Positions 1-64,000 of a DNA stretch of 64,000 bases are shown here, piece by piece. Under the pieces are notes generated by a model, which was not told where the DNA came from, ran no database searches, and was given only the letters and a program-made list of their open reading frames with translations. Made by a program: the position numbers and the translations under genes. Each line of letters starts with the position of its first letter. The stretch's first letter is position 1. Source of the DNA: Siphonodentalium dalli (taxonomy: Eukaryota; Mollusca; Scaphopoda; Gadilida; Siphonodentaliidae); assembly GCA_032622095.1 (NCBI GenBank), contig CP136061.1, positions 196,648,935-196,712,934 on the forward strand. Direction: 5' to 3'.

Positions 1-261
1 GCGACGCCATCTTCGCGCGTGCGCAGACGAGATCTCGGAAACGGGTCGAGCTATCGACTTGAAATTTGGTATGTGAATGTATCTTGCCCCGGATACGAAT
101 TTTATCGGGTCGCCGAGCCGGTGCGACGCCAGCTTCGCGCATGCGCAGACCAGATCTTGGAAACGGGTAGAGCTATCGACTTGAAATTTCGGGCTGGGTA
201 GAGCTATCGACTTGAAATTTGGTTTTTGAATAGCCCGGACAACGTCGGGCTCATCGGCTAA
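1..261 (+). mobile_element. Helitron-like element, 3' part (cut by window edge)
   Basis: This is the right end of a non-autonomous Helitron-like element. It holds about one and a half 122-bp core units, then the terminal block: a GC hairpin (stem arms AGCCCG and CGGGCT, 223-248) and the tail CATCGGCTAA. CTAA fits the Helitron 3' rule CTRR. The next element begins directly with TC at 262. The complete counterpart at 61272-61934 shows the missing left part. No protein is encoded; ORFs here are by-products of the repeat. Confidence 0.7.
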
Positions 262-893
262 TCTCATATATATTTTGAAGACCTCTGTATGTCTGTCTGT
301 TTGTTTGTCTGTCTGTCTGTCATTAATACAAATCTACGATTCTCGACCGATCGGGACGAAACTTGGTACGTGTGTGTAGTTTGACCAGGCGGTCGTCGTT
401 GTCGTGTTGGCGAGCCCGTGCGACGCCCGTACAGCGCATGCGCAGACGAGATCTCGGAAACGGGTGGAGGTATCGACTTGAAATTTGCTATGTGAATGTA
501 TCTTGCCCCGGATACGAATTTTATCGGGTCGCCGAGCCCGTGCGACGCCAGCTTCGCGCATGCGCAGACGAGATCTCGGAAACGGGTGGAGCTATCGACT
601 TGAAATTTGCTATGTGAATGTATCTTGCCCCGGATACGAATTTTATCGGGTCACCGAGCCCGTGCGACGCCAGCTTCGCGCATGCGCAGACGAGATCTCG
701 GAAACGGGTGGAGCTATCGACTTGAAATTTGGTATGTGAATGTATCTTGCCCCGGATACGAATTTGATCGGGTCGCCGAGCCCGTGCGACGCCAGCTAAG
801 CGCATGCGCAGACCAGATCTCGGAAACGGGTCGAGCTATCGACTTGAAATTTGGTTTTTGAATAGCCCGGACAACGTCGGGCTCATCGGCTAG
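262..893 (+). mobile_element. Helitron-like element, complete non-autonomous unit (632 bp)
   Basis: The element starts with TCTCATATATATTTTG, followed by a GTCT/GTTT microsatellite (290-320), a lead-in containing GACGAAACTTGGTACGTG (355-372), about four tandem core units of 122 bp, and a 3' hairpin with CATCGGCTAG as the last ten bases. 5'-TC, a hairpin about 10 nt from the end and CTAG-3' are the classic Helitron termini. The GTCT tract and tandem core resemble DINE/pearl-type elements (family knowledge). It is joined head-to-tail to its neighbours with no host DNA between them. Confidence 0.75.
372..860 (+). repeat. 122-bp tandem core repeat of the Helitron-like element
   Basis: Units start near 'cgagcccgtgcgacgcc' and repeat every 122 bp (ORF starts at 363, 485 and 607 mark the period). 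Each unit carries GCGCATGCGCAGACGAGATC, then ATCGACTTGAAATTTG and a 'cttgccccggatacgaattttatcgggtcgcc' segment. Because 122 is not a multiple of 3, reading frames rotate from unit to unit. This explains the many overlapping ORFs of 75-95 codons on both strands. Confidence 0.85.
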
Positions 894-1448
894 TCTCATA
901 TATATTTTGAACACCTCTGTTTGTCTGTATGTATGTTTGTTTGTCATTTATACAAATCTACGATTCTCGACCGATCGGGACGAAACTTGGTACGTGTGTG
1001 TAGTTTGACCAGGCGGTGGACGTTGTCATATTGGCGAGCCCGTGCGACGCCAGTTTCGCGCATGCGCAGACGAAATCTCGGAAACGGGTGGAGCTATCGA
1101 CTTGAAATTTGGTATGTGAATGTATCTTGCCCCGGATACGAATTTTATCGGGTCGCCGAGCCCGTGCGACGACAGCTTCGCGCATGCGCAGACCAGATCT
1201 CGGAAACGGATGGAGCTATCGACTTGAAGTTTGTTTTTTGAATAGCCCGGACAATGTTGAATTTTATCGGGTCGCCGAGCACGTGCGACGCCAGCTTCGC
1301 GCATGCACAGACCAGATCTCGGAAACGGGTGGAGCTATCGACTTGAAATTTGGTTTTTGAATAGCCCGGACAACGTCGGGCTGGGTAGAGCTATCGACTT
1401 GAAATTTGGTTTTTTAATAGCCCGGACAACGTCGGGCTCATCGGCTAG
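894..1448 (+). mobile_element. Helitron-like element, third unit of the head-to-tail array
   Basis: It begins with the same TCTCATATATATTTTG start and a short GTCT/GTTT tract, and carries three core units. One of these is interrupted by an internal copy of the terminal segment around 1240-1260. It ends with two successive terminal hairpins (1365-1384 and about 1418-1438) and CTAG at 1445-1448. The next base is T, and the left flank of the equivalent array at 61271 is A, so the array as a whole sits in an A^T target as expected for Helitrons. Confidence 0.7.
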
Positions 1449-1614
1449 TTATTATATATATGTATTTTGGAGCGCAGCCGCCAAGTGACTTTAATTTATT
1501 ATTGGTATAACTCTCCAGTAACGAAATATCGTGTGTTAAAACATCTGGTTATAAACATTACATCGTATGTTATATGCCATAACATGCAGTGATACATTCA
1601 TTATTAATTCATAG

Positions 1615-1758
1615 CTGGACACTGGACATCGTGGCACAGTGGTTACTGCAGTGTCACATGCGGCAAAGGTTCTGAGACAATAACACGGTTTTGCAGTGGC
1701 GGAATCAATTGTCTTGGCTCACCATTCAGCAGTCAATATTGCCACCGAGAGCCATGTG
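1615..1758 (+). CDS. Exon: thrombospondin type-1 (TSP1) repeat, first in this copy
   Basis: This 144-nt exon follows an AG acceptor and ends at tgtg|GTGAGT, with phase 1 at both ends. The translation reads GHWTSWHSGYCSVTCGKG, then an ITRFC segment and ends CHREPC. It has the TSP1 hallmarks: a W-x-x-W C-mannosylation motif, C-S-V-T-C-G-x-G, an Arg before the third Cys, and six cysteines in total. TSP1 modules are disulphide-layered extracellular domains that bind matrix or receptors. The upstream exons of this copy lie left of the window; the signal-peptide exon of the second copy is at 49691. An almost identical exon recurs at 63288-63431. The exact acceptor is inferred from phase agreement. 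Confidence 0.85.
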
Positions 1759-1855
1759 GTGAGTCTAGCTATATCTACTGTTGTGTGCAGAGAACGTCAA
1801 ACTTGTTATAAGATTCACATGCCCTGCAGTTTACTACACATGTCGGGACATTGAA

Positions 1856-2250
1856 GATCTCTAATTCGGCGTAATTCTATAGGAATTTGATTACTAAATT
1901 CGATTCCAGCTGGAATAGAATTTAGTGCACGATGTTAATAAATTTCGTATACAATTTCGACGAATTTGAGATCCATTTTAGCTAATCACATTTTAGCAAG
2001 GAAAAACGATATCGAAACGGCTGGCAGTTAAACACAAATTAATATTGATTTCCTTATCACAACCAAAGAGGAAGTATAAGAAGCCTTCAAGAACAAATAT
2101 AGTTCCATTTTAAATGTGTCTTTCATCAAAATTGTTCAATAACATTTATCACCCATGTCTATCTCACAGGCAACACTAAATAACCCAACACAAACTGAAT
2201 ATCATAACTATATTCTAATTAACATAATACTAATTCCGGCGCATTATTTA
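1856..2250 (+). repeat. Dispersed repeat with palindromic head, copy 1
   Basis: 1856-1973 folds on itself: left arm GATCTCTAATTCGGCG and following, right arm ending GAATTTGAGATC, centre CCAGCTGG near 1907-1914. The whole stretch to about 2250 reappears in reverse complement at about 13120-13521, including blocks such as ATTTTAAATGTGTCTTT and AATAACCCAACACAAA. A copy in the same orientation is at 63529-63923 because of the 61.7-kb repeat. It is probably a non-coding mobile element of unknown class. Confidence 0.65.
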
Positions 2251-2540
2251 ATAGTATTTTCGAACCGATGCTGTGTTATTGATGTAAGTTGGTACATTTC
2301 AGCCCATCAACCAAGTTTTTTCTGAGATAGACCATTCCAGTACTATAAAATAACAAAAAGATGGAGTGTTAGTGTACTCCAATTCGCCCCAACCAATCAG
2401 CTCGCTGTCGAAATGAATCCCAGTTAAAGGTGGTACGCCGAAAAGATCATTTCACGTCGATGTTTGTTGTGAAAAATGAGTAATCGACTATTGTTAAATT
2501 TCAACCAACAATGCAAGTAATTTACAAGAATTTACATTTG

Positions 2541-2562
2541 CTTGAGTACTCGAGTACTCAAG
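2541..2562. repeat. Perfect 22-bp palindrome
   Basis: The sequence is its own reverse complement, built from CTTGAGTACTC followed by its mirror GAGTACTCAAG. It is an isolated site within the first intron. No function can be assigned. Confidence 0.8.
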
Positions 2563-3013
2563 TCTTGCTTTACAACTGTACAATATTAGGAAATTACCGA
2601 GGAACGTTCTCCGTAAAATAATTACACTGTCTTGTTATGATTTTATAGCACAGGACCCAGCATTTAGTGTGGCTTAGGTAAGCTATATGATATTTATGTT
2701 TTTTTGAATGACACGACAATCATTTTGGAAAATTTCCAACCATAGCCTATTGGTGTCAGGTTGTAACTGTTCAACAGTTAGAACACATACGGTACCAATA
2801 TGGTGGGTGCGAGTGAATTTCCTGGAAGTACACGGAAGTCAGTTGGAGCATTCCGTTAAAGGGGTACTGTACACAGGGACGTGGCTAGAGGGTCACTGTT
2901 GGGGGTGTCCACCTTGGCCAATTCTCCAATTCCACCCCTTGAATCTCATCAGACCAAACACAAGTTTTGCATAATTCCATTTGCACCCCTTGAACCTCAG
3001 TGCTCAGGCCTAA

Positions 3014-3033
3014 TCTATATATATATTTGCGAA

Positions 3034-3068
<35 letters not shown>

Positions 3069-5974
3069 GTTCTATAGAAATTCACAGGGGACCACCTAGA
3101 TGGCACAAAAGGGGTCTAATAGGGGTAACTTTTTACGAGAAAGATAATGGCGAGGGTTAGAATTTTCTAAAGTGACACCGTTGTTGTCAGGGGCAGATTG
3201 CCTTCAAACTGATATATAATCATCCCCATAATATGAGGAATCTAATGGTGTGGTTTAAATATGTCAAAAGTCGCGCCGTTCGCGTCAGGGGTGCACGGAA
3301 GGGGAGAGGGGTACCAAAATTGATCAAAATAATTTTAGCGCCGAATTCCACCAAATTGATGCACATTCTTCTGAGATCTTCTCCATGATACAAGGAATCT
3401 TATTGTGTGATTTAAAGACGCCAAATTGGTGTCGTTGGGATGAGAGATTTGGGGGGGGGCGGTGGCATTGGGTACTAAATCTGATAAGAATTGGTTTAGT
3501 CGCCGATTCCCATGAAACTTATACAAATTCATCCCCATGGTATGAGGTGTCTAATGGCGTGGCTTAAAGCTGTCAAAAGTCGCGTCTTTCGAGTCAGGGG
3601 TGCACTGAAAGGGAGAGGGGCACAAAAATTGATACACAATATTTTTAGCACCAATTTCCACCAAATTGATACACATTCTTATCCATGATATGAGGAATCT
3701 TATCGTGTGATTTTAAAGACGTCATATTGGTGCTGCTTTGGTGATAGATGGGGTGGGGTGGGGTGTTCACTAAATTTGATAAAAAAAATTGTTTTGTCGC
3801 GGATTAGCACCAAACTTACAAATAATAATCTCCAATGATATCAGGAGTCTAATTGTGTGGTTTAAAGATGTCAAAAGTGGGGCCATTCGAGTCAGGGGTG
3901 CCTAGAGGGTGAGAGGGACACACGCATTGATAAACAATATGTTAGCGCCGATTTCCACCTGATTGATACATATTCTTCTCCGTGATACGAATAAACTAAT
4001 CGTGTGGTTTAAATGTGCCAAATTGGTGCCTTTTGGGTGAGAGATATGCAATGGTGGCCCTAAATTGATACGAATTTGTATACTCGCCAATTTTCATAAA
4101 TTTTATATATATTCATCTCTATAATGAGTCTAAGTGTGTGGTTTAATGATGTCAAAAGTTGCGCCGCTTGAGTCCGAAATAGGGACGGGAGGGTCACCAA
4201 AAACTTATAAAAATATGTTTAGTGCCAATTACCATCAAACTCATACACGTTCTTCTCAAAAGATACAATGAATAAAATATTTGCGAATATCTGTCTGTGT
4301 TCTATATATAACTTTAAGGGTACAACCGAGATGGCACCAAGGCGGTCTAACAGGGGTAACTTTTTACGAGTATGATAATGGTGCAGGTTAATATTTTCTA
4401 AAGTGACGTTGTTGGTGTCAGCAGCGGAGGTGCTATTTTTAGCGCAGTTTTCGACCAAATTGTTATATTATTCTTCTCCGTGATACGAGGAAAATAAACG
4501 TGTGATTTAAAGACGCGAAATTGGTTTGCGTGAGAGATGGGGGGGGGGGGTAATAACTATGATAATAATTTGTTTAGTTGCCGATTACCACCAAACTTAT
4601 ATATAATCATCTCCAATATATAATGCATGCATGAGTCTAATAGACATGGTTTAAATATGACAAAAGTGGCGCGGTTCACGTCATGCATGAGGGGAGTTGC
4701 GCCAAAGTTGATACAAATATATTTAGCACTGATTCCACCAAATTCAAGCACGTTCTTCTCTAATGATATGATGAATTAATTCACATTTGGGGTCGTTTGG
4801 GTCATGGATGGCGAGAGGAGATTCACTAGCATTTATAATATTGTTCAATTCGCCAATATATATAGCAAGTTATATATAGTCATCTCCCAGGCCATCTCCA
4901 TGTCGTTCTACGGAGTTTTTGGCATTCCAATTTCACAATCTCGACAAATGGTGACCGAATTATGTCACTTAAACAATTATATCTTCTCAACTGTCATATT
5001 TATATGGGGATGGAAACCAAGGCATTCCTATAACGATCTAGCAACACAGATACATAGAAGAAAGCATTAAAAGTATATTCATATCAATCTATTTAAGAGA
5101 TACATATATTCATTCAAACCGAGGGACCTTGAATCGTCAGAGGATTGCATATTAGAATGGCTCATGTATATATTATAACACGATTGTGTCTGTCTCATTC
5201 AATAGAGTTTCCACAAAAAAGTTACAATTGCCTAGAGATATGGAAATGTACAGCAGGCCTGTTCAAAAATAGTGGTCACAGTGTGCAGTCAAATATGGTT
5301 ACTTCTGAGATAAAGGAAAACGCAGTCTGTAGCACATGTCTTTTCAGGATCCTCCAATAGTGACATCTGACAAGGGTATATCTACCCGATACAGAGGATA
5401 TCTTTCATTTTTTTAGAACAGACTCATCGCCTAACATAAAAACTCAAAATCTCGCTGCGTCGGGCACATGTAGCTGCTATACTTGCATAACATCATTTAT
5501 TTTAAACTGAAAATGATTATCCAGAATATAGCACCAGAACAGAGGAGCACCTAGACATATCTTTAAAACATCTGTATCTTCATGAAGATATGATAAACTA
5601 GATTGATTGATTGATTGATACATCTCTATGTAAAACACAATTGTCGTCTTTTATTTTTTCGGACTTAAGTGTTTATGATGTTCATGTTCCATGATATAAC
5701 GTCTGAAGTATACGCAGTTGTAAATACATAAATACTTCTTTATTGGTGGGACGGATTAAACGCGATAAACAAAATGATAATCGCTCTGACCTGACAAGGT
5801 GAGCCACTACTTATATTCCCTGTGTAAGAATCATGTTTTGTGATGCCATTTGGATATACAATTTATGAGAATACGTGTAACACTTTGAGAGCAAGAGTAT
5901 TGTCTATTCCCACAAAATATCCACAGAGGGTTTCTCATCACTTTAACCTGGGCAACGCCGGGTAACCCTGCTAG
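3014..5974 (+). mobile_element. Helitron-like element, long family, copy 1 (2.96 kb)
   Basis: Its 5' end is TCTATATATATATTTGCG, preceded by A (3013), with (GTCT)n at about 3035-3068. Its 3' end has a stem-loop (acctgg ... ccgggt, 5946-5962) and the tail AACCCTGCTAG, followed by T (5975). This obeys the Helitron A^T insertion rule. The interior 3100-4750 is a degenerate array of modules: 'gccgatt-caccaaa-ttgatacacattcttctcc-atgatatgagga-tctaat-gtgtggtttaaa', then a G-run. There is no transposase or Rep/Hel coding capacity. The second copy is at 50630-53107. Confidence 0.7.
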
Positions 5975-6508
5975 TATCCTATATATTTATAAACCATGGT
6001 TCTACATTCCCGGTATGAGAACATTAAGATATTTTAACCTGAAAATTGCATAAATCCTAACATCTTGTGGTCTAACTCCAGACAAATGCACACGGTTACG
6101 GACAAGAGACCAGGACACACCGGGCCGACCACCGGTATACGATCATGTAAAACATATGTTGATACGGGGCGTATACCCAAACCACTCACTGACTAGTGAC
6201 TATACAATAACTTAAATGAGTATGTGGGACTAGTATGCATATGATATAACATTTTTTTGATACATTTGCTTGAAAACTGTAAAAAAAAATACTCGACAAC
6301 GATAATCTGTATTTTCGCATTCCGGCTAATCTGCCATCCGTAACATTACTTCGTACTCAACAGACTTTCAGATAATGGAAATCTGGTTACCTTATTCTAC
6401 GACTCAGAGACTATATAAACCATCAACAACATTTGAGTATAGTATCCCTTTAAATCAAATTGCCTTTCGTCGGAAAGGTGTGGTGTATATGTCGTTTTTG
6501 CTGGGCTA

Positions 6509-6811
6509 GCATTACCTAGTTATTTTTCTCGATTTTTTCTTTTTTTCACTTTTCACTTTTTACTTGGCATTAACCACGATCGTATCGCCGTATGAAATCA
6601 TTTTGCGAGCGACTTTCAGTGTACATAGAAACAAAATAATACAGAAACAACAACTGACTATATTGTCAATCCAACAATCCGCGCATAATGTATTTATTAA
6701 GCAAAAAAGTGTGCCTACCGCGACAACAAAAATTCGAGATCCGACGAAACCGGAAACGTCTAAACATGAGTCAACCGTACTGATACCAGACAGTGCATTA
6801 CCTAGTTATTT
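6509..6811 (-). mobile_element. Candidate retroposed fragment bounded by 17-bp direct repeats
   Basis: GCATTACCTAGTTATTT occurs at 6509-6525 and again at 6795-6811. The 269 bp between begin with a T-rich run (6526-6563) that would be an A-rich tail on the minus strand. A target-site duplication plus a tail is the signature of LINE-mediated retroposition. The inserted body is open in one + frame for 87 codons (6564-6827) with no recognised similarity, so no coding claim is made. Confidence 0.45.
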
Positions 6812-7442
6812 AAAATTCCACGCATGACGATGTTATTTTAACAATTTATTCAAAAGACCTGAAAGACAAGGATTATATTACTTATTCGTGTCTATATTTC
6901 TGGTCGCTTTGCGGTTATATTTCACTATTTACTTTATCAACTAAATCAAAACAAGAAATGTTTTCCTAAATGTATATAATAACCCTTTGTGTCGGGTAAT
7001 TTACTAATTTTAAAGTGATGAGAAATTCTTTGGTATAGGGTGATTAAATAAAAATTGAGAATAATCCTGCTCAAATTAGTAATTTTTGCAAATATTATAT
7101 CCAAAATGACAACACACACGGTCATTCTTATATAGTAATTGAATGCAGTGACTCTCGATGGCGAAATAGTTTTCGTTAGTTTATCGCCGATTGTTTCGAC
7201 CCGAATCGGGAAGTAAATATTTACAATTTAGCGTAGTTCCGACGATGTTTTCTATGCAGTTGTATACGGTCGATTTGCTTGAGATTTTCGGCGATGTTAG
7301 TAGAATACTACATTCCTCCAGTTAACATAGCGCCTGAGTACTAACTTATCAGTGTATCATATCGGAACAAGTCCATTAATATGTCTTTAACATAAGAACA
7401 TTAGGAACACAATATTTACATAGTGCTTTTCCGATATTCCAG

Positions 7443-7583
7443 TCCAGCATTGGTCATCCTGGTCAGAAGAAGAGTGTCCGGAATCGTGTTTGAGGTCTGA
7501 TACAAGATACTGCATGGTCGAACCTTGCGTTGGCGAGACGTCAAGAACAGTTGATTGTTATGGAGCTCTGTGTCCTAACCAAG
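7443..7583 (+). CDS. Exon: TSP1-like repeat 2
   Basis: The 141-nt exon follows ttccag and ends caag|GTACAT, phase 1 at both ends. It encodes HWSSWSEEECPESC, an RYCMVEPC segment, and ends with a Cys-Pro-Asn-Gln. It keeps the W-x-x-W motif and six cysteines but lacks the usual C-G-x-G turn after the second Cys, so it is a diverged or shortened TSP1 module. A second possible acceptor 5 nt downstream (ccag|catt) would break the phase. Its neighbours in the gene are the TSP1 exons at 1615 and 12714. Confidence 0.7.
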
Positions 7584-7662
7584 GTACATAATTAGTCATA
7601 GAGTACACAGTGTGACCTCGGTAACACTCAGTTGGTAATGTGATTGGCAGATAGGTCGACTC

Positions 7663-7850
7663 GTTCAAGTTCAAGTTTTTATTTGTAATGTATATATCAA
7701 CATAACAATGGTAAAAAAGTAACAAACAACAAATAGCGGTAATACATTACTGGGTGGTGGCATGACCTTCTGGTCGTCTTCATGCCATCTCCCAGGACAA
7801 AACTTCCTTTCTGGCTCTGAACTCCCCTGGTCAGAGGTCATACTTTCAAA
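7663..7850 (-). mobile_element. LINE 3'-end fragment
   Basis: Read on the minus strand, this is a 3' untranslated end: a stem-loop (ggcatgaagacgaccag ... ggtcatgcc), then an AT-rich stretch, AATAAA and a short tandem tail of TTGAAC units. CR1/L2-like non-LTR retrotransposons typically end in such short microsatellite tails rather than poly(A). The coding part is absent, so it is 5'-truncated. Confidence 0.6.
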
Positions 7851-8589
7851 TTAAACTTGTGCTTAAATGACATTGCAACTTTTATCAACAACATAGTAAT
7901 GCTACTGCAATATCATTGCATAATAATTATTGCAGTTTTTTCATTTAATGAAAATTGTTGAATGAAAATGAAAATGATGATGAGACAGAACAAGTGTCTA
8001 AATATCTAAACAGATATCAGTTTCCTATAATTTGTTAGTGATATGTTATGTGTTATGACTACCTCATGACATGACGCCTGGACAGCAACCATGACAATAT
8101 AAGTTGTTACACTCAACTTTTTCAAGGTAAGACTCAATTAACTCTAGTGTAACCTGGCGTTTAAAGTTGGTACGTGGCATATACTCGTGTAGCGGAACAT
8201 GTTTGTCAATAGTTTCCCTGTGTTGGTGGTTTCTACGTGCAGTGATGATTTCCCGGGAAGTGGCGATATAGTAGTTTAAGGGTATATTAACCCAATTTGA
8301 TAAGATTTTTCAACAGTTGGAAATGTCATGCATAACAAATTATTCTGATATTTGTATTTATATTTTAATAAATATTCAGTCTAAAATCTGTTTTGACCAG
8401 GATTTGAGTACTTTCCTGCAATCAGTGGAACATTGAGACCAAAATGGTAATCAGTTGAAGATTTCGAAGCATAAATATTGTTTTTGGTTGGAATAACTTG
8501 AAATATCATTTTAATAATTAAACTTGGGTGGATGCAGTTTCCCATAGCCATATAAACCGTTTTGTGTACGTACACTCTTAAAACAATAG

Positions 8590-11522: not shown

Positions 11523-12713
11523 GTCCATGCATACATGTACATCACAACACTAGGCCTATAAATCAGTTCGTCGCAGACTCCGTAGAAACATTCAAAACAA
11601 TATTCAGCAGACTCCGAAACTGGTAGACATGGCCACACATATGTTTCAATGAAATATGATGTATCATGAGACGAGTGACTGATCTGTGTCCACACGTCAG
11701 TTCGCGATAATTAATTCCGAAGAAGACAATATCGACACATCATTCTGACTAAACTTTCTCAGTTTCTTCGTTGTTGTTGTTGTTTATATTGTCATGTACT
11801 AATCATTGGTTGACATCATAACTTTGGGGAATTTTTCTCGCGTCAGTACCAAGTGTAACACCTACAACAGCATTGGCTTGTACAGCTGTTGGAATGTTGT
11901 AAACAGTGACAGTCGAATTAACAACTCGAAAATATCACCATCGACCGGTTTTTGTAGTTTAAAAGCTTCCCCGATTCACACCCAGACCAAAATCAAACAG
12001 TGTTTACATTATTCCAGAACTTCTACAACACAAGAAGTAACCTATTTGATCCAATTTTGCCAAATTTTGCCAAAATAAATTCATTTTTCATTTCAATTTT
12101 CACGCCTTCGTTGTAACTTAGCAACCGGCAAATTATTATTGTTTCATTTTAGGCCACACTAAAACTTCAAATGTGTACCTGTAAGTCGAGGCCGAATTCG
12201 CCTTTAAATAAAAAATGCAAGCGGGTGTTGCGTCGCGTTTCTCCGTTGTTATAAGATTCTTGTAAACGATAGATCGATGACAGCGAGTCGATGAGCGGCC
12301 ATTTTTTCACTTTAATTTGATCATTTGCACACGACACTCGATATCGACGCACGTGACGGTCTCACCAATCAGCTTGGAGCCAACGATCAGGTTATGTGCG
12401 GAACCTATCATCTAGGTTTTATAGCGTTAAACAGGTTCTAAAGGTGTATAGTACCAAACTGTTAAGCACTACAGGAGCTATAGGTTCTTTGGAGTACCTA
12501 AATCAATTGCTTTATTTAAGAGTGTATTACCTGAAAATTTCGCACCAATTGATAGGAATCTTCCCACAGCTGTGTGATGTGTTCGTCTTTCTGTCGTCTG
12601 TTCATTTGTCCTGAACATCCATCTAGATGAATCCATTCTAACTTTTAAAATTGATGGGACAATCCACTCAGTGGGAGAATTGTTAATCATAATTAACGAT
12701 GTTGTGATTACAG

Positions 12714-47116: not shown

Positions 47117-47123
47117 CAACAGC

Positions 47124-47154
<31 letters not shown>

Positions 47155-49751: not shown

Positions 49752-49862
49752 GTGAGTTACGTCATGGTTGATGGATAGATCTCATATTATTCAAGCTAGA
49801 TTTCTGGCTTGCACTGTGATGAGGTACACGAAGTCATCGATACCCACATTGAACTAACTTAA

Positions 49863-53107: not shown

Positions 53108-53121
53108 TAGCTAATATGAAC

Positions 53122-53270
53122 ATGATAGGATAGGATAGAATATTTTATTTCCAATACACATATATATTACATAATAATGATGAAAATTATGGATAATTCT
53201 GTCGTATATTGTGGGGCATGGCATAGTCTGGCAAGACTGTCTTCCTGCCATGCATGCCCAGTATGGTGTA
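53122..53270 (-). mobile_element. Truncated LINE 3' end (minus strand)
   Basis: The + strand begins with GATAGGATAGGATAG, the complement of the CCTAT tail, followed by the complement of the LINE 3' UTR including the stem words GGCATGGCATAGTCTGGCAAG and CTTCCTGCCATGC. It is a 5'-truncated copy of the family at 37903-41405. Confidence 0.75.
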
Positions 53271-54754
53271 TATAGAAATGAATAACAATAGTAAGATGGC
53301 CTCGTGTGAGCCGTGCACAGATTGTGTATATGTAATTTATGAGTTTAGCGCTTAATTTAAGGGTGTGTGGAAATGGATACTACCGAGGGCTATTCAATAT
53401 CATGTATATGGTTCAAATTCAGATGATTGGGTAGTATTTTTGGCGGATGAGGGTACAGGGACTACTGATTCGTATTGGTTGGCGTTGAAACCGTTATATG
53501 TACACTTAACGGCATACGATCTGGGGGACAGTCTGGTCATCCTCGATTGTTTGCATTTGATATTGTTGATATTATTGATAAGATAGCGAAAGGTACTTAC
53601 TATAATTTCACGATTATATAGCGATTGATATTCAGGCAGGTTAATGGACGGGCTGTTAGACATTCGTAAACTAGATGGCCCAGTCGCGAGTCCATATGCA
53701 TTAACCGACTTAAAACATAGTTTCATAATATACAAGGAGAAAGTACATTTATACAGACGAAACATTCCGATTAATGAGACGGTTACGAACTTTTTTTCTG
53801 GAGACAAAAATAATCCTCAACTGACAGCAAAACCACGCCCCTTGACCCGACTCGTGTGAGTGGGAATTACATGTCAATTTTGCCGTGAACAAAATAGACA
53901 CAATACCAAGCGGTACACCTTTGTCAGTAAATAAAAGTTGATGTACGCAAATTTGATAAATTATTTGTTTTGTGCTGTACATTGTATAGTATTTACACGT
54001 AATATATACTGTTGATGCAATTACATGTATCTATATGTTGGGCACGTATGCATTTTAGAACATTTTTGACTCAATATCAATGTTGTTTCCAGAAGAACAG
54101 TAACACTATTAGTGGAGTCTCGAATATATTAGATCCGCCTGGTATGCCTTATACTGACTATGGACATGGGGTTCATAAGTACTATGCAGATGTGTGTTAA
54201 TGTGGACGGGTACAAGAAGTGAACTATTTCTCTGATATATAGAGGTCCCCTTTGGAGCTCGTTGTGCATAACTTGGGAGACATGACCATTCTAGATTTTA
54301 CGAATGTCGAATTGTGGTGTAGATATATGGTATAAAGCATGATATAAAGTGCACATTCGGAGAAATATAAGGTCCAGGTAAAACAAAGGAGCTGTGTTTT
54401 AAATCGCAGTTAGGATATCTTAACATGATAGGTTGAGGCTATATAGGATTATTGACGAAATGACTGAGATATATGAAGAAGTGTTTTAAAGAGCAATCGC
54501 TATAAAATCTTGTATTAGGTGACGCTATCGTATGTTTACGTTATCGGTGTGGGATGCGGCTCGGTTTCTTGACTTTTGACCGAATACTGATAATCTCTGA
54601 GGCCCAGTTATCTGGCCTAAAATTTTAATAATTACGATAAAATGAAAACTGGTTGTGGATTGGAAATGTCGCAAAGTAGAACGTATCCTGTATATAATGT
54701 TGTCGCAATCAATAACCATTATCGCCACGCCGATCTCTCACATTTATAGTTATA

Positions 54755-55481
54755 CTAGAAGGTGACCCGACTTCGTCCGGGCTTTGACCTTGAATTGTCC
54801 ATTTTGAAGGTCAAGTGGGGTCACGATTTGACCAGTCCAAAACATTGCCCGGACAAAAGTACCCGACAAACGTGCCCGTCGTAATCCATCCGCTTTTACC
54901 CGATTTGACCTCGAATTGATCATTTTGAAGGTCGAGGTCAGGTCGGGGAAACGACTCGACCCGTCCAATACACCAGTTCACAAAAGTAACCCTACGTATC
55001 AAATTTCGTCGAAATCCTATCAAAATTGGCGATTTGACCTTGAATTGACCCGATTTCAAGGTCAATGTCACGTCGCACGGGCAAATGAATATGCTTATGA
55101 GACTCCCCATACGAAAGTAGCCCCACATACCAAGTTTCATCGAAATCCCGTGATATTCGGGCGTTTGACCTTGAAATGACCCGATTTCAAGGTCAAGGTT
55201 ACGTCGCACGGGCAAATTAATAGGCCTATGCCACTCTCCGGCCGAAGGCACCCCCATATACCAAGTTTCATCGAAATCCCGTGATATTCGGCGTTTGACC
55301 TTGAAATGACCCGATTTCAAGGTCAAGGTCACATCACACGGACAAATTAATAGGCCCATGCCACCCCCGGCCGAAAATACCCCCACATACGAAGTTTCAT
55401 CGAAATCGGCTCGGCCGTTTTCGAGTTCATCGCGAACACACACACCACACACAGACAGATCTTCCAAAAATATATAATAGA
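54755..55481 (-). mobile_element. Helitron-like element with about 131-bp core units (minus strand)
   Basis: On the minus strand it starts TCTATTATATATTTTTGG with a GTCTGTGTGTGG tract and has core units spaced 131-132 bp. These are marked on + by TATCAAATTTCGTCGAAATC (54997), ACCAAGTTTCATCGAAATCC (55128) and a repeat at about 55260. It ends with the hairpin AGCCCGGACGAAGTCGGGT and CACCTTCTAG before T (54754 is A on +). Its upstream flank is CCTGCTAG, the 3' end word of the long Helitron-like family. The 233-codon minus ORF here is a run through the repeats. Confidence 0.7.
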
Positions 55482-55521
55482 CTAGCAGGTTAGCTGAATA
55501 GGTCACTCTCATCGGTTTTCT

Positions 55522-55571
55522 GTGATAAAGTTACCCAGGTTCCTAATTTTGTGATAAAGTTACCCAGCTTG
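55522..55571 (+). repeat. Two tandem TGTGATAAAGTTACCCAG words
   Basis: TGTGATAAAGTTACCCAGGTT (about 55520-55541) and TGTGATAAAGTTACCCAGCTT (about 55548-55569) are 28 bp apart. They equal the terminal inverted repeat of the small element at 57018-57231 and may be remnants of excision or end-to-end insertion. Confidence 0.6.
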
Positions 55572-56827
55572 GACTATATACGAAAATCATTATGTGAATC
55601 AACGATCGACCCCTTACGAATTGCATGTCGCACATGAACACTCTATACTAACCGATAAGTATATACATATATCAAATAATATTTTTAGCCAGAGAGTTTT
55701 AATGGCATATCATTATAAGAAATATATATATTGCTCTCACTTCCAAGAACTGGGACAGAAATTCTACAACATTGTATTTCTAGAACACTGCGAATACTGA
55801 TTGAAGACAGGTCTGTTGAACTAAATATTTGTTCCACATGACTATATTTTAGGGATTATCTGACTTAGCCATTTTCTAAGAAGGGCCTATTAAACCGACT
55901 CCGTCGCATCGTATAGGGCGAATACATGATAATAAATGCCGATGTTTATGGCGATTGGTTGTGTTTCTTGTATATATGTAATGTGCTTGATCACTTGTAA
56001 ATATTAATTTCACATGTAAACTTATTCATATATTTACCTCAAATACTGTATGCATATGTACGGTTTTTATTAAGATTAAACAAATTCAAATTCAAGGTAA
56101 GTTTCCATTTCTATGTACTAGTATTGTTTAATAACATTGACATATTAATTCAGTCATATGGCGGTATTGTTGTATGCAAATCTTTGTTGTCCCTTCTAAT
56201 TTGCAACTGAATGACAAAGTGATGACAAATATCTGCCTCAGTAATCCCCAATTAGCAGTGTCTAGTGGAGGCATTGTGTCACCAGTAAGCTGGTGGTCAC
56301 AAAGGCTAATTCTGTTAATGACTCTAATTAACAATCAGAGTGTTGATAATCTCATTTTCCTTTACAATGGCCTGGCTGTGTGACTGACTTACTGAGACAG
56401 TCCTAATTATTTAATAATGAAATGATGGATACATGTATATGTTAATAAAATACTCTATTATTTTCATAACGAAAGCATCGAGATATCTACACAGTCACAC
56501 ACGCAAGTGATCAATAACCTAGAATCTTTCAGTATGTAAAAAACATCAGTCAAGAACCAAAGCATTGAAGATAGTTAGCAAAGTTCTCAAATCTCTGATA
56601 TCATCTGAATTTCTAGAAGATCAACCCCGGCTACTAGCTGCCAATACAGCATGCTGGAATTGTTAGCTCAGTTCTACGAACACCAGTCCTATCCTGAACT
56701 CAGTACATTGGCTGCTCTTTGCAAAGTGTGCTTCATTAGTGTGCTTATTCGTGTATTTTATCTTGCTTGTGTTAAATTTATGTTTTGTTATCAAATAAAG
56801 TATTTATCATATAGATAAATAGTGTTC

Positions 56828-56995
56828 CTATTTCAATTATGTATTGAAATGTAATTGTAATTGTAATTGAATTACATTTCAAAGTAATTGTAATTGTAAT
56901 TAATTACATTGTGAAATAGATGTAATGGTAATTGTAATTGTAATTGAAAAATGTTGAAGTAATTGTAATTGTAATTAATTACATTCACAAGTAAT
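56828..56995. repeat. (GTAATT)n hexamer repeat with mirrored halves
   Basis: Runs of GTAATT alternate with AATTACAT so that segments can fold back on each other. It lies directly before the small inverted-repeat element at 57018. Confidence 0.75.
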
Positions 56996-57017
56996 TGCCC
57001 CAAGCCCAGGTTGGTGA

Positions 57018-57231
57018 GAATTGTGATAAAGTTACCCAGGTTAAGCAAATCTCACAATATCAACTCGATTTAAAAGTGACAGAGGGAAATATTATTCAGT
57101 TATGGCAAGTAATAGCCCTTATCAAGCATAAATTAAGACATATTAGTACTGTAGTTCGTCATTTTGATCACAAAAATCAATAATTTGTTGCTAAACATGA
57201 ACTATTATTAACCTGGGTAACTTTATCACTT
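57018..57231. mobile_element. Small inverted-repeat element (about 214 bp), ends GTGATAAAGTTACCCAGGTT
   Basis: GTGATAAAGTTACCCAGGTT at about 57020-57039 is mirrored by AACCTGGGTAACTTTATCAC at about 57211-57230. The interior is AT-rich and encodes nothing recognisable. The target duplication is not evident. Confidence 0.65.
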
Positions 57232-57623
57232 CTTTTTTTTGTTGAATTTTTTTTCAATGAGGTAATTGTGCCTTTTTCTGGCGGAAAAATTGACCCGATG
57301 AAATCCACCCCCCCCCCCTTCCTCGGAACGACAGACAACGCATTCTTTGTTTTTCAATGAGTTAATTCATGGTACCCGTCCTAAACTTCCCCGTTCCTAG
57401 GAACCACATACTTTTTAATCAAGAGAAATTATGATACCCGTCCCTAAAAGAGGTATGATTTTGTTTTAACCTGCCCGTGGCCATTGAGCAGCCCCTGACA
57501 GATGTTGTCCACCCTTACGAGATGGTCAATAGTCCCCGCAAAGAGCGGACAGTCAATTAACCCCGCCGTGAACCCCATCACCAACGCGACGTAATTTTGT
57601 TTGGTATCATGTGTTGCGTTCTA

Positions 57624-57819
57624 AAAACAACTCGAACGAATGGCAGTTTAGCTATTCACAAAGAATTGTAAATCAACTGCGTCTGTTCCCGTATATCTCT
57701 GTTGCGTTGAATTGTAGATCTAAAACAACTCGAACGAATGGCAGTCTAGCTATTCACAAAGAATTGTAAATCAACTGCGTCTGTTCCCGAATATCTCTGT
57801 TGCGTTGAATTGTAAACAA
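57624..57819 (+). repeat. 98-bp tandem duplication (two units)
   Basis: 57624-57721 and 57722-57819 are near-identical: AAAACAACTCGAACGAATGG, then CTATTCACAAAGAATTG and TCTCTGTTGCGTTGAATTGT. They differ at a few bases. This is a recent local duplication. Confidence 0.85.
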
Positions 57820-58446
57820 ACGCTCTTTTATAGCGATGCGTCAAAAACAAAACGTTCATTAAATTATCACTTGATTAACCACCGCAGTGCCGTTTTTGTG
57901 ACTGAGAGTGGAGAACTGGTGGTCTGAGCTTCTCCAAAACGCCGCGACGACGATTCCCGTGGGTTTTTACCCTTAGATGGGAAGTTTGAACTCAATCGAG
58001 CCAGCCGTTTTAGAGTCTATATATAGAGGACACATATATTTATATATTTATATATATACGGAGTTCTAAAAATATATAGTAGAGAGATAAACTTTACTAG
58101 TTTTCGACTGATGAGGCCAAATAGGCCTATAAATAATTTCTACCGGTCTCCTGGATCAAATTCTCAGACCATCAACTTCGGAGGCGGAACATTTTTGGAT
58201 AACACTCGAAACTTTGAGCAGTGACACAATGTATCTGGGACGCTTTAATTTCCATGACAAATTGGTTATACCCCAAATATGTGGATATCTGAAATAAAAT
58301 GACATAAATTGACCGACATTTCTACAATAACCCACGAGAACATAATTGATTAAGCCTAGCTTATATTTATTTTCGGGCCTCACAGCCACAACACCAATAT
58401 AACAAACACGACAAGAATCAACTTCAGAGAAAAATTGAAACGCACG

Positions 58447-58965
58447 CCATTGGCTGCGGACACACGTATCACAGTAGCGATGGCATAGTATGTGTGACCA
58501 TTAATTATGGTACAATTTTGGTGACAATTGGTCGTCATATTCCTGTGCCATATCGAGACATGTCGCCCGCCGCACATTCACACAATGAGCCTTTTCCAAG
58601 CTCTATCAGGGTCGAGATCGACATCTCAATGATTTATCAAACCGAATGTCTTGTCGCTGTTGATCGTTACTCAACACGCAATGTTATATTTGTAATGCTA
58701 ACACACAAGACAATTCTGGACGATCGGTCGTGCAATTTTAAATATCGTAGAGAATACAATATGGCTAAACGTATTGAGTAGATATCAACATTGGTGAACC
58801 TCAATGGGTTAATTGGTCAATCGACTCACTGTACGAATATGCGGCGCGCGACACGACTCCCTATGGCATATAAATTATGTTGACCAATTGTCACCAAACT
58901 CTACCATAATTAATTGTCACACCTACTATGCCATCGCTACTGTGGTACGTGTGTCCGCAGCCAAT
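58447..58965. mobile_element. Inverted-repeat pair, possibly a MITE
   Basis: The left arm (about 58447-58540: ATTGGCTGCGGACACACGTA, then AGTAGCGATGGCATAGTA and GACCATTAATTATGGTA) is mirrored by about 58885-58965 (TACCATAATTAATTGTCAC ... GCCATCGCTACTGTGGTACG ... GTCCGCAGCCAAT). The arms are about 85 bp and the element is about 520 bp in all. No clear target duplication. Confidence 0.65.
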
Positions 58966-59393
58966 ACTAATCCCTAATGTGGAATGAATGCACATATTTA
59001 TTTTTGGTTTAATCAGGTTTAATAGGGATATTTTGAAAGTCAGTATATATGGCCATAAACATCACATGCATGAATGGACTTTTATGTGTGATATCATTAT
59101 ATTCTAATACCGTAATACGAACATGTTACAAATGGTAGTTGTTCAGTGGAAATAATGTTGGACATCTTTATGACAAAATATTTCATGTACTGAATATTCA
59201 GACATCCTTATCAATCCAAGTGCAGTTTCAGCTACAATGTACACATGTAGGATCCATCACATGGACGCCCAATCTACGCGTCAAATAGTCACGCATCTAA
59301 CAACTGAATCTCTCTGTTATATAACATAATGCTCAAATACAAAGGTAACTATTATTGATATGTACAGTATAATTATATATATTTACTTTTCAG

Positions 59394-59561
59394 AGCATAT
59401 CCGGAATAGAGGCGTAAATGCCAGAGGAAGCTCCCGGTCCTCCCGGTCCTCCCGGTCCTCCTTTCGGTCCTCGTCCTTCCGGACCACGCGGCTTATTCGA
59501 TCAGTCCCGCTAGTTCGGTCCACTCGCTTTGTTCGGACTTCCCGGTTAATCCGGGTGTCAA
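59394..59561 (+). CDS. Candidate exon: Arg/Ser-rich segment of the second TSP1 gene copy
   Basis: The 168 nt between a pyrimidine-rich acceptor (atttacttttcag) and a perfect donor (a|GTAAGT) are open in phase 1-1, the phase used by all exons of the TSP1 gene. The sequence reads HIRNRGVNARGSSRSSRSSR, with Arg about every third residue to the end (RTTRLIR, RFVRTSRLIRV). It derives from a 9-nt repeat (TCCCGGTCC). In the +1-shifted frame the same DNA gives Gly-Pro-Pro triplets like collagen but is broken by three stops. It could be a real linker after the signal peptide, a decayed collagen exon, or a chance microsatellite between splice-like sites. Confidence 0.35.
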
Positions 59562-60418
59562 GTAAGTACATACATGTCAAGTAGGCGTTTAAATTGAAAA
59601 CATCTACCTTCTCCCGCAAAATCAGACTATTATATTATTCAAGGTGTGACGGAATATCATGGCCAAAAGTAGAACATCTATATATATTTGTGTTGATATA
59701 CTGTACAACAATACGTGTGAATGTGCCACACGAAAATAGGCCTTATTTAATGCTGGTTATAGTATAACACGCTTCATATCTAATTGACTCGTCTCTCATT
59801 ACGAAATTGCTGAATTGTGTTGCACGGATTTCGTTTGGAAATAGAACATAGCTGTCTGACTGATTGGATAATATTTCCCCGCCTCGGAGACTGAGAAATG
59901 TATGTCATGCATGACGGGCGGAGTTACTAGAAGTTTTAAAATCTAAACATCCTTATGTCAGATCAAATCTAGTACATATACACGCAATTTATCGTTCTTG
60001 TCACATTAAAAATTAAATGCTTACGTATACGCTGGTAAATATGTGGTTCGGTTCCTGAATTTGATCACACCAAAGGGCAGACAAAGAATGCTCTGTCGTA
60101 ATTTAAATTGAACGATGATTAATAATGGCCTGTCATATTTAACACACCTACATGTAAATTACTAAATCTTATAAAATAAAAATAAAAATATATATATATA
60201 GATACATATGCATAGAGTCGACAAAAATTCGAGGTGCAGAAAATAAACATATTTCAAAAATAGAAATCTAATAGCACTGAGCTTTGAAGGGTATAGATTC
60301 CTCGACTCAACTCAAATACATGTATATTCTCTCTAAAAGCCGAAGAAATAGTAATTTAGGGGCGTTAAATGTGACAGGGAATCACTAAAATATTGTGCAG
60401 TGATTACTCTATATACTC

Positions 60419-60582
60419 AATGCATATATACGGCATATACCGCGTTCTACTCTACGCAATGGATCTATACGGCATATACCCCATTCTACTATACGCAATG
60501 CATGTATACGGTATATACCCCGTTCTACTATACGCAATGCATGTATACGGCATATACCGCGTTCTACTCTACGCAATGCATC
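60419..60582 (+). repeat. Four tandem units of about 41 bp
   Basis: Each unit reads ATGCAT-TATACGG-ATATACC, then CGTTCTACT-TACGCA. A single extra TATACGGCATATACCGCG lies at about 60997-61015, just after the hairpin at 60836-60991. Confidence 0.8.
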
Positions 60583-60640
60583 TTTATTACACGCTTGTTC
60601 CTAGAAATACGGTGTTATTGCTGTTCCATATTTACAAATC

Positions 60641-60664
60641 CGTATGGAACGTACGTTCCATACG
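60641..60664. repeat. Perfect 24-bp palindrome
   Basis: CGTATGGAACGT is followed by its exact mirror ACGTTCCATACG. It stands between the tandem array and a cluster of CRE-like TGACGT words (60673-60698). Its function is unknown. Confidence 0.85.
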
Positions 60665-60672
60665 CATCTCGT

Positions 60673-60698
60673 TGACGTCAAATGACGTAAATGACGTT
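60673..60698. promoter_or_regulatory. Cluster of three TGACGT (CRE-like) words
   Basis: TTGACGTCAA, ATGACGTAAA and ATGACGTTCG follow each other within 26 bp. TGACGTCA is the full cAMP-response element. The cluster may be regulatory or simply part of the local repeat; nothing else supports a promoter here. Confidence 0.3.
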
Positions 60699-60835
60699 CG
60701 CCTCAACCATGAAACTGGAACTATTTAAATAAAAGAATCATCACACATAACAAAAACCCCTGTATGAACATAAATAAACCTTTAATCCTGTATTTTTAAT
60801 GCACGGATTCTAGGACGCGAAGAATGTAATAAAAA

Positions 60836-60991
60836 CAGAACGACACGATGTGTAAATGGGTTTGTCGATATATACGGCACTCGTGCTGTCGCGGAAGGAT
60901 AGAACTCGAGGCACAAGCGCCTCTCGTTCTATCCTTCCGCGACAGCACGAGTGTCGTATCGACAAACCCATTTACACATCGCGTCGTTCTG
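60836..60991. repeat. Near-perfect hairpin, arms about 73-77 bp, 6-nt loop
   Basis: The left arm 60836-60912 (CAGAACGACACGATGTG...) pairs with 60919-60991 (...CGCGTCGTTCTG) with few mismatches around the loop ACAAGC. The stem includes GTCGCGGAAGGATAGAAC. It could form a cruciform or, if transcribed, a long double-stranded RNA. Confidence 0.85.
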
Positions 60992-61271
60992 TGTATATAC
61001 GGCATATACCGCGTTCTAGGGACTGTGTCACAGACATGTCCAACTATTTTCAAATTTTCGCACAGAAGTGAAATAAACGCTGTTTATTTCTACATGTACC
61101 ATACCAGGATTAGAACAGGAGTAGACCACGTGCAAATGATTGTTTTTGTTTGGAACCCAAACTTCGTGTTCAAAGTTGTATTTGTTATCACTTCAATGCG
61201 TCTTTCAAAAATGCTCGTAACAAGGTAGTTCAACTATCTATCGACCTATAAGATGCAGCGAAAAGCGTATA

Positions 61272-63121
61272 TCTCATATATATTTTGAACACCTCTGTTC
61301 GTATGTTTGTTTGTATGTTTGTGTGTATGTCATTGATACAAATCTACGATTCTCGACCGATCGGGACAAAACTTGGTACATGTGTGTAGTTTGACCAGGC
61401 GGTGGACGTTGTCGTATTGGCGAGCCCGCGCGGCGCCCGTGCAGCGCATGCGCAGACGAGATCTCGGAAACGGGTGGATCTATCGACTTGAAATTTGCTA
61501 TGTGAATGTATCTTGCCCCGGATACGAATTTTATCGCGTCGCCGAGCCCGTGCGACGCCAGCTTCGCGCATGCGCAGACGAGATCTCGGAAACGGGTGGA
61601 GCTATCGACTTGAAATTTGGTATGTGAATGTATATTGCCCCGGATACGAATTTTATCGGGTCGCCGAGCCCGTGCGACGCCATCTTCGCGCGTGCGCAGA
61701 CGAGATCTCGGAAACGGGTCGAGCTATCGACTTGAAATTTGGTATGTGAATGTATCTTGCCCCGGATACGAATTTTATCGGGTCGCCGAGCCGGTGCGAC
61801 GCCAGCTTCGCGCATGCGCAGACCAGATCTTGGAAACGGGTAGAGCTATCGACTTGAAATTTCGGGCTGGGTAGAGCTATCGACTTGAAATTTGGTTTTT
61901 GAATAGCCCGGACAACGTCGGGCTCATCGGCTAATCTCATATATATTTTGAAGACCTCTGTATGTCTGTCTGTTTGTTTGTCTGTCTGTCTGTCATTAAT
62001 ACAAATCTACGATTCTCGACCGATCGGGACGAAACTTGGTACGTGTGTGTAGTTTGACCAGGCGGTCGTCGTTGTCGTGTTGGCGAGCCCGTGCGACGCC
62101 CGTACAGCGAATGCGCAGACGAGATCTCGGAAACGGGTGGAGGTATCGACTTGAAATTTGCTATGTGAATGTATCTTGCCCCGGATACGAATTTTATCGG
62201 GTCGCCGAGCCCGTGCGACGCCAGCTTCGCGCATGCGCAGACGAGATCTCGGAAACGGGTGGAGCTATCGACTTGAAATTTGCTATGTGAATGTATCTTG
62301 CCCCGGATACGAATTTTATCGGGTCACCGAGCCCGTGCGACGCCAGCTTCGCGCATGCGCAGACGAGATCTCGGAAACGGGTGGAGCTATCGACTTGAAA
62401 TTTGGTATGTGAATGTATCTTGCCCCGGATACGAATTTGATCGGGTCGCCGAGCCCGTGCGACGCCAGCTAAGCGCATGCGCAGACCAGATCTCGGAAAC
62501 GGGTCGAGCTATCGACTTGAAATTTGGTTTTTGAATAGCCCGGACAACGTCGGGCTCATCGGCTAGTCTCATATATATTTTGAACACCTCTGTTTGTCTG
62601 TATGTATGTTTGTTTGTCATTTATACAAATCTACGATTCTCGACCGATCGGGACGAAACTTGGTACGTGTGTGTAGTTTGACCAGGCGGTGGACGTTGTC
62701 ATATTGGCGAGCCCGTGCGACGCCAGTTTCGCGCATGCGCAGACGAAATCTCGGAAACGGGTGGAGCTATCGACTTGAAATTTGGTATGTGAATGTATCT
62801 TGCCCCGGATACGAATTTTATCGGGTCGCCGAGCCCGTGCGACGACAGCTTCGCGCATGCGCAGACCAGATCTCGGAAACGGATGGAGCTATCGACTTGA
62901 AGTTTGTTTTTTGAATAGCCCGGACAATGTAGAATTTTATCGGGTCGCCGAGCACGTGCGACGCCAGCTTCGCGCATGCACAGACCAGATCTCGGAAACG
63001 GGTGGAGCTATCGACTTGAAATTTGGTTTTTGAATAGCCCGGACAACGTCGGGCTGGGTAGAGCTATCGACTTGAAATTTGGTTTTTTAATAGCCCGGAC
63101 AACGTCGGGCTCATCGGCTAG
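61272..63121 (+). mobile_element. Head-to-tail array of three Helitron-like elements (complete copy)
   Basis: The units are 61272-61934, 61935-62566 and 62567-63121, each starting TCTCATATATATTTTG and ending with the GC hairpin and CGGCTA(A/G). Internally each has a GTCT/GTTT tract and 122-bp core units. The outer flanks are A (61271) and T (63122). 61674-63121 is the same DNA as 1-1448, with substitutions at 62110 (C to A) and 62931 (T to A). Head-to-tail arrays fit rolling-circle transposition (family knowledge). Confidence 0.75.
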
Positions 63122-64000
63122 TTATTATATATATGTATTTTGGAGCGCAGCCGCCAAGTGACTTTAATTTATTATTGGTATAACTCTCCAGTAACGAAAT
63201 ATCGTGTGTTAAAACATCTGGTTATAAACATTACATCGTATGTTATATGCCATAACATGCAGTGATACATTCATTATTAATTCATAGCTGGACACTGGAC
63301 ATCGTGGCACAGTGGTTACTGCAGTGTCACATGCGGCAAAGGTTCTGAGACAATAACACGGTTTTGCAGTGGCGGAATCAATTGTCTTGGCTCACCATTC
63401 AGCAGTCAATATTGCCACCGAGAGCCATGTGGTGAGTCTAGCTATATCTACTGTTGTGTGCAGAGAACGTCAAACTTGTTATAAGATTCACATGCCCTGC
63501 AGTTTACTACACATGTCGGGACATTGAAGATCTCTAATTCGGCGTAATTCTATAGGAATTTGATTACTAAATTCGATTCCAGCTGGAATAGAATTTAGTG
63601 CACGATGTTAATAAATTTCGTATACAATTTCGACGAATTTGAGATCCATTTTAGCTAATCACATTTTAGCAAGGAAAAACGATATCGAAACGGCTGGCAG
63701 TTAAACACAAATTAATATTGATTTCCTTATCACAACCAAAGAGGAAGTATAAGAAGCCTTCAAGAACAAATATAGTTCCATTTTAAATGTGTCTTTCATC
63801 AAAATTGTTCAATAACATTTATCACCCATGTCTATCTCACAGGCAACACTAAATAACCCAACACAAACTGAATATCATAACTATATTCTAATTAACATAA
63901 TACTAATTCCGGCGCATTATTTAATAGTATTTTCGAACCGATGCTGTGTTATTGATGTAAGTTGGTACATTTCAGCCCATCAACCAAGTTTTTTCTGAGA
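63122..64000 (+). repeat. Right end of the 61.7-kb direct repeat (matches 1449-2327)
   Basis: Every base I compared from 63122 to 64000 equals 1449-2327, including the TSP1 exon and the palindromic dispersed repeat (63529-63923). The match continues to the window edge, so its right limit is unknown. Confidence 0.9.
63288..63431 (+). CDS. Exon: TSP1 repeat 1 of the second gene copy
   Basis: It is identical to 1615-1758, with the same acceptor, GTGAGT donor, W-x-x-W, C-S-V-T-C-G-x-G and six cysteines. Its position after the signal-peptide exon (49691) and candidate exon (59394) gives the 5' structure that the first copy lacks in this window. The rest of this copy lies right of the window. Confidence 0.85.

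Follow-up and report, generated by a model that had tools for sequence, protein, structure and literature searches.

Patchwork near-identity along a probable tandem array of a thrombospondin type 1 domain gene in Siphonodentalium dalli

The repeat at the ends of the window

A total of 64,000 nucleotides of the scaphopod Siphonodentalium dalli (assembly GCA_032622095.1, contig CP136061.1, here C1; C1:196648935-196712934), referred to below as the window, were analysed together with the genome sequence (2,226,750,531 bases, 2.23 Gb, in 9 contigs). The window begins and ends in near-identical copies of a sequence that includes an exon of a gene with thrombospondin type 1 (TSP1) domains. Our sequence analysis suggests that the window probably represents one period of a longer, true tandem array of this gene. 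Window coordinates double as unit coordinates, position 0 being the base before 1. The period in the window (1-61673) is named U1; U-1 and U0 lie to its left, U2-U5 to its right, and the inverted units I1-I3 lie near 198.5-198.65 Mb. The two copies at the window ends are:

1-2327, forward strand: first copy of the repeat, start of U1; 2 substitutions against 61674-64000
61674-64000, forward strand: second copy of the repeat, start of U2; 2 substitutions against 1-2327

Base-by-base comparison of these copies revealed just two substitutions, at 437/62110 (C/A) and 1258/62931 (T/A), and zero indels; such a match cannot be chance. The preliminary description of this DNA had named exactly these two differences, and its coding TSP1 exon within the repeat proved real (Pfam TSP_1, 26.4 bits; curated cut-off 21.6 bits). 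Its statement that the repeat also holds unique intron DNA is true of a part only. The segment 1-1461, apparently made up of Helitron-like units head to tail, is dispersed: its copies occur on each of the nine contigs, many of them at 87-96% (best 40 of 11,167 candidates scored). The full-length copies of 1470-2330 number 4, at 98-100%, and there are partial ones at 90-93%; all of these lie on C1 (best 40 of 3,067 candidates scored). This segment also includes a short dispersed repeat.

Alignment of the sequence past 64000 with 2328 onward, which the same description had proposed as a check, showed that near-identity carries on to 8088. At the same offset -4039 to 10488 aligned with 57624 to 72165 at 99.4% identity with 57 substitutions. 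The edges of the window differ from the edges of the repeat.

Exons of the TSP1 gene

The following exons were identified in the window:

1615-1758, forward strand: TSP1 exon A, phase 1 at both ends; Pfam TSP_1 26.4 bits, splice signals read in the sequence
7443-7583, forward strand: TSP1-like exon B; no Pfam match, found by motif and with a profile of exons A-D to which B itself contributed
12714-12848, forward strand: TSP1 exon C; Pfam TSP_1 21.5 bits, 0.1 below the cut-off
14599-14754, forward strand: TSP1 exon D; Pfam TSP_1 36.5 bits
16673-16960, forward strand: cysteine-rich exon E; 9 genome-wide matches, no Pfam match at E 0.01
49691-49751, forward strand: candidate signal-peptide exon of the next gene copy; 20 hydrophobic-core codons, GTGAGT donor, phase 1
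63288-63431, forward strand: TSP1 exon A of the next gene copy (U2); exon A plus 61,673, open frame 63281-63481

Exons A-E each start and end in phase 1 with AG/GT signals, on coordinates read from the sequence. As in thrombospondin type 1 repeat proteins (Pfam PF00090), exons A and D score above the Pfam cut-off, and among solved structures the joined exons match thrombospondin-1 best (7yyk, E 7.7e-21). Unlike in those proteins, the Pfam search gave no match for exon B and, at E 0.01, no family for exon E; exon C falls 0.1 bit below the cut-off, and the gene as a whole is not assigned to a named family. The position of the candidate signal exon at 49691-49751 suggests that the gene probably begins at the end of one unit and extends into the next. 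A gene copy would then probably consist of the signal exon near a unit end followed by exons A-D and E at the start of the next unit, with exon joining predicted from sequence. The candidate signal exon and the domains point to a probable secreted thrombospondin-type protein as the product. Exons downstream of E were not found, and neither RNA families nor tRNAs were present in the window (0 of each).

Comparison of the units revealed an identical candidate signal exon in U0, U1, U2, U3 and I1. In the signal exon of U-1 (C1 near 196593.2 kb) the donor GT is changed to AT, an alteration that may impair the gene copy with its TSP1 exons in U0. Exons A, B and C are open in every unit with data (7, 5 and 5 units, respectively), D is open in 5 of 6 and E in all 3 (9 of 9 in the genome-wide search). 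At exon C a stop occurs in three of five units, past the donor, and exon D in I1 carries a one-base gap. As for positive selection, a significant excess of replacements was found in 0 of 20 unit pairs (smallest p 0.336, the exon C range taking in a few intron codons); strong constraint on the exons is likewise not claimed.

Layout and copy number of the array

Exon E (96 residues) has 9 matches genome-wide, all on C1 and none with a stop (33 of 33 candidates scored). Six are direct (+), at 196614864, 196665606, 196755200, 196848531, 196904284 and 196956552. Three are inverted (-), at 198633715, 198578870 and 198511358, 1.55 Mb past the last direct match. The six direct copies are neighbours in the same orientation on one chromosome (C1 196.61-196.96 Mb), as in a tandem cluster, and this finding supports the tandem duplication of the TSP1 gene put forward in the preliminary description.

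Other parts of the unit recur in the same two clusters. The exon A region was found at five direct places, its own included (196602778, 196650404, 196712077 and, in pieces, 196816867 and 196887239), and at two inverted places besides (best 40 candidates scored). The segment 44000-50000 occurs at four direct places and one inverted place, its own counted (best 40 of 23,763 candidates scored). The segment 12400-14350 occurs in full at four direct places and in pieces at a fifth, with pieces also in the inverted cluster (best 40 scored).

The unit alignments used below comprise collinear alignments of at least 150 bp and omit insertions relative to the window; U2 12530-14353 is absent from this projection although it is present in the genome (99%). 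U3, U4, I1 and I2 are covered in part, and U5 and I3 are known from exon E only.

Near-identity tracts and patchwork divergence

Comparison of U1 with its neighbours revealed the following tracts of near-identity in the window:

1-8088, forward strand: window part of a 10.4-kb tract, U1 head against U2 head; 5 substitutions in 8,084 sites, continuing left to -2339
43777-59059, forward strand: second near-identical tract of U1 and U2; 10 substitutions in 15,282 sites
59334-61673, forward strand: U1 tail near-identical to U0 tail, the left part of the same 10.4-kb tract seen from U1/U2; 2 substitutions in 2,340 sites, edge substitution at 59333

The tract from -2339 to 8088 (10,428 bp) holds 7 of the 57 substitutions and 3 small indels; 38 substitutions fall in the 1.7 kb from -4039 to -2340 and 12 in the 2.4 kb from 8089 on. 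The left edge is sharp and the right edge softer, and the tract spans the unit junction. The widest span with at most 2 substitutions measures 4,511 bp, a length never matched in 2,000 random placements. Divergence of about 0.1% is confined to this 10.4-kb tract, so it does not give the age of the duplication.

Between the two tracts the units are far less alike. Over 8.1-43.5 kb the comparison of U1 with U2 gives 272 differences in 23,282 comparable sites (1.17%), and the overall figure is 329 of 48,439 (0.68%); over most of 14-43 kb U1 is about 1-2% apart from both neighbours. The divergence of 1.17% between U1 and U2 over the comparable sites of 8.1-43.5 kb led us to reject a single recent duplication of the whole unit as the sole cause. 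The preliminary description had proposed that the whole gene was duplicated very recently. For the whole unit this does not hold, as U0-U2 differ by roughly 1-2% outside the tracts and the units bear private transposon insertions.

The second tract is shared more widely. U0 and U3 share it as far as about 53 kb, and the inverted unit I1 as far as about 49.3 kb; I1 and U0 are alike from about 42 kb to the latter point. At 44-53 kb U0-U3 are alike, and at 44-50 kb U1 and U3 show 4 mismatches in 6,003 columns. At 53.5-58.5 kb U1 matches U2 and U0 matches U3, with about 2.4% between these pairs. At 59.5-61.7 kb U0 matches U1, at 30-32 kb U0 matches U2, and at 1-8 kb U1 matches U2. At 49-55 kb, a stretch with little difference among U0-U3, U-1 and U0 differ at 163 of 4,495 sites.

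Among 27,415 sites with data for U0-U3, a total of 172 split two against two: 131 as U0U3/U1U2, 30 as U0U1/U2U3 and 11 as U0U2/U1U3. The 172 sites form 8 runs, against a mean of 67 and a minimum of 50 in 5,000 shuffles. Tracts of identity flanked on both sides by higher divergence, and unit relationships of three kinds that conflict along the sequence, are both features of concerted evolution. As the tracts are near-identical among differing combinations of units, no single tree and no single pairing of alleles fits them; repeated exchange between units accounts for the three-way splits.

Two other causes of the identity were considered and rejected. Constraint is not the cause, because U-1 and U0 diverge at 49-55 kb; moreover, the tracts cover non-coding DNA and a dispersed 2-kb element. 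A mobile element does not explain the identity at 44-50 kb, since the full stretch occurs 5 times (best 40 of 23,763 scored), at homologous places of the units, and dispersal is limited to its first 2 kb.

A dispersed element, some 2 kb long or longer, lies in the left part of the second tract (44000-46040); many of its copies, at 95-98%, are on other contigs.

Interpretation of the array

Our analysis suggests, with good confidence, a true tandem duplication of the TSP1-domain gene that has been patchily homogenised, most likely by non-allelic gene conversion. Unequal exchange would have raised the copy number of the unit, and non-allelic exchange would then have replaced portions of some units by those of others, in tracts about 9-15 kb long. 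The near-identity of the window ends would be one such exchange tract, of 10.4 kb, lying across a unit junction. The patchwork itself was observed directly; judged from sequence, gene conversion is most likely the process behind it, rather than double crossover. The upkeep of likeness by gene conversion, raised as an option in the preliminary description, gains support from tracts bounded by divergence and from pairings that change along the units. The identity of a tract dates the last exchange there, not the duplication, and a divergence of 0.1% across a few kilobases is not necessarily a measure of when a 61.7-kb unit was duplicated.

A further reading of the cluster is doubtful. In it the cluster would be a rapidly changing one, in which the block with the signal exon and a presumed promoter (about 44-53 kb) is kept near-identical in four direct units and partly so in the inverted cluster, the TSP1 exons would differ more between units, and the copies would number 6 against 3 between the two haplotypes of one animal. 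If this were true, control regions would here be seen in the course of homogenisation beside diversifying recognition domains.

Comparison with known systems places the locus within a familiar kind. In human segmental duplications, long tracts of unusual identity between units are likewise bounded by ordinary divergence (PMC10172114, cited from part of the text). Interlocus gene conversion events there have a mean of 6.26 kb and a maximum of 504 kb; the tracts of about 9-15 kb found here are above that mean and within that range. The human set comprised 102 haplotypes with donor and acceptor known, whereas the present study used one assembly and the direction was not read. The SpTransformer (Sp185/333) clusters of sea urchins are alike in being tandem segmental duplications in an invertebrate gene cluster with unequal allelic gene number; they differ in an unrelated protein, much smaller units and an immune role shown there, while the locus studied here is known from its sequence only (PMC8634487, in the part consulted). 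Among the literature matches listed, no title matched tandem TSP1 clusters. Tandem repeats kept alike by copying are a familiar route of gene-family growth, and the kind is already well known; this locus clearly illustrates how an invertebrate-like tandem array can be homogenised in patches.

The mirror-image locus

An inverted copy of the locus lies at C1:198.484-198.691 Mb, where parts of both flanks and 3 units were found against 6 direct units. Bases 1944-4000 of the left outside probe match in reverse at 198689275-198691292, and the right outside probe matches in reverse at 198484252-198488391. Substitutions in the mirror flanks number 5 of 1287, 6 of 720 and 12 of 1677 (0.4-0.8%), and a repeat-rich part of the right flank aligns at 94%. 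This flank divergence is allele-like, similar to that of a doubled polymerase gene found among the controls.

Three conserved gene families served as controls for redundancy in the assembly. PROCN gave one main locus (on contig C4) with 9 exon matches, and two short matches on another contig. MCM gave nine loci with no obvious near-identical pair. RNA_pol_Rpb1_2 gave four loci, two of which form an inverted pair at C4:90.47 and C4:90.78 Mb, 300 kb apart, at 98.84% over 1,810 columns with 12 mismatches; its architecture is that of the mirror locus. These controls show no wholesale doubling of the assembly, but one inverted pair is suspicious. The short PROCN (Prp8-type) matches away from the C4 main locus, two in number, lie 4 kb apart at C2:230962114-230966274. 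A search of the genome for Chitin_bind_4, a large family of arthropod cuticle proteins, gave 0 matches; no control genome gave a signal in it.

On balance we lean slightly towards the mirror locus (198.48-198.69 Mb) being the second haplotype, scaffolded in reverse beside the first. This is a separate question from that of the direct array, and the answer is compatible with a homogenised tandem duplication. Both flanks recur in part in mirror order with the few substitutions given above, the doubled polymerase gene is likewise inverted, and allelic clusters of unequal number are known from the sea urchin SpTrf genes (7 and 6; PMC8634487, as far as the part cited goes). Against it, the repeat-rich part of the right flank is only 94% alike, bases 1-1941 of the left probe were not found at the mirror place and have their best match on C8, and inverted and direct units are up to several percent apart outside shared tracts. 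In addition, no scaffold gap turned up in the 1.5 Mb between the loci, where no search was made for one. True inverted duplications exist, and such a duplication takes most of the remaining probability. Among the literature matches listed, no title was specific to inverted haplotigs. The gene count at the locus (9, 6 or fewer) hinges on whether the mirror copy is the second haplotype.

Haplotype overlap and other explanations of the direct array

Direct overlap of two haplotypes, in which the assembly joined both versions of one locus so that U1 and U2 (or blocks of units) are alleles, is unlikely. False heterotype duplications would resemble the repeat described here in giving two near-identical copies side by side; they are marked by gaps between copies and half depth, and are mostly separated by gaps (PMC9516828, in the part drawn on here). 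The direct array differs in showing no gap, more than two near-identical copies and mosaic pairing. No N was found in 250,000 contiguous bases around the window, a check that would miss a gap that had been filled. At 44-53 kb the near-identical direct units number four, which exceeds two alleles. The pairing is not fixed, being U1 with U2 and U0 with U3 at 53-59 kb, U0 with U1 at 59.5-61.7 kb and U0 with U2 at 30-32 kb. The mirror locus, if it is the second haplotype, already fills that haplotype's place; the direct array would then probably be one haplotype, and an allelic reading of U1 and U2 is weaker still. The joining of two overlapping copies of one locus, as the preliminary description had envisaged, thus finds no support for the direct pair. 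The allelic redundancy that it had called a serious alternative is unlikely for this pair too, and stands as a serious possibility for the mirror copy about 1.5 Mb away.

Several points nevertheless weigh against a homogenised tandem duplication and, in part, favour alleles. The overall divergence of U1 and U2 (0.68%) is allele-like and comparable to that of the mirror flanks (0.4-0.8%). Alleles, too, can diverge unevenly, so the profile alone does not decide against them. One conserved-gene control is doubled as an inverted pair, so redundancy is possible in this assembly, which may hold some redundant haplotype sequence. The tracts could also stem from double crossovers, or from duplication of whole units later overwritten in parts, and the array was read from the sequence of one assembly.

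A single recent unequal crossover that made U1 a chimera, with no gene conversion, would give a U1 head like the U2 head and a U1 tail like the U0 tail, as was found. Such a chimera predicts identity over the full 61.7 kb; the observed run is 10.4 kb, U1 is about 1-2% from both neighbours over most of 14-43 kb, and the four-unit identity at 44-53 kb is left unexplained. This explanation already fits poorly and we consider it very improbable. The least probable of all is that consensus calling or polishing merged reads from similar units while the array itself is real, for although reads of near-identical repeats can be misplaced, the tract edges are sharp, their endpoints vary by pair and private unit differences stand directly alongside.

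Mobile elements and changes private to units

Besides the TSP1 gene, the window contains the following elements:

1-1448, forward strand: Helitron-like head-to-tail units (the end of one, then 262-893 and 894-1448); end motifs, hairpin positions, dispersed copies
20479-25924, no strand assigned: insertion with inverted ends (5.4 kb), in U1 only compared with U0 and U2; empty sites in U0 and U2
about 37763-41406, forward strand: LINE-type (long interspersed nuclear element) element with an interrupted reverse transcriptase frame, in U1; RVT_1 match, empty site in U2

The Helitron-like units recur at 61272-63121. Three of them stand in tandem, where a hairpin and then CTAA or CTAG is directly followed by the next TCTCATAT start, and they hold a 122-bp tandem repeat. 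We label 1-1448 as Helitron-like by its resemblance to the features of that class.

Changes private to U2 were also observed. An insertion of 23,218 bp (C1:196729632-196752849; window frame 80698-103915) is accompanied by a 9-bp target duplication and has similar inverted ends made of tandem repeats of about 530 bp. Its match to a MULE (Mutator-like element) transposase is weak (22.2 bits, below the cut-off of 27.6), and the insertion is possibly a very large MULE-type element. U2 further contains a 4.6-kb internal tandem duplication (window frame 69613-78866) that is 99.2-99.5% identical. Further right, C1:196774450-196782934 (window frame 125516-134000) forms an inverted repeat with 3.7 kb arms, 99.71% identical and about 1 kb apart, that reaches the end of the stretch read.

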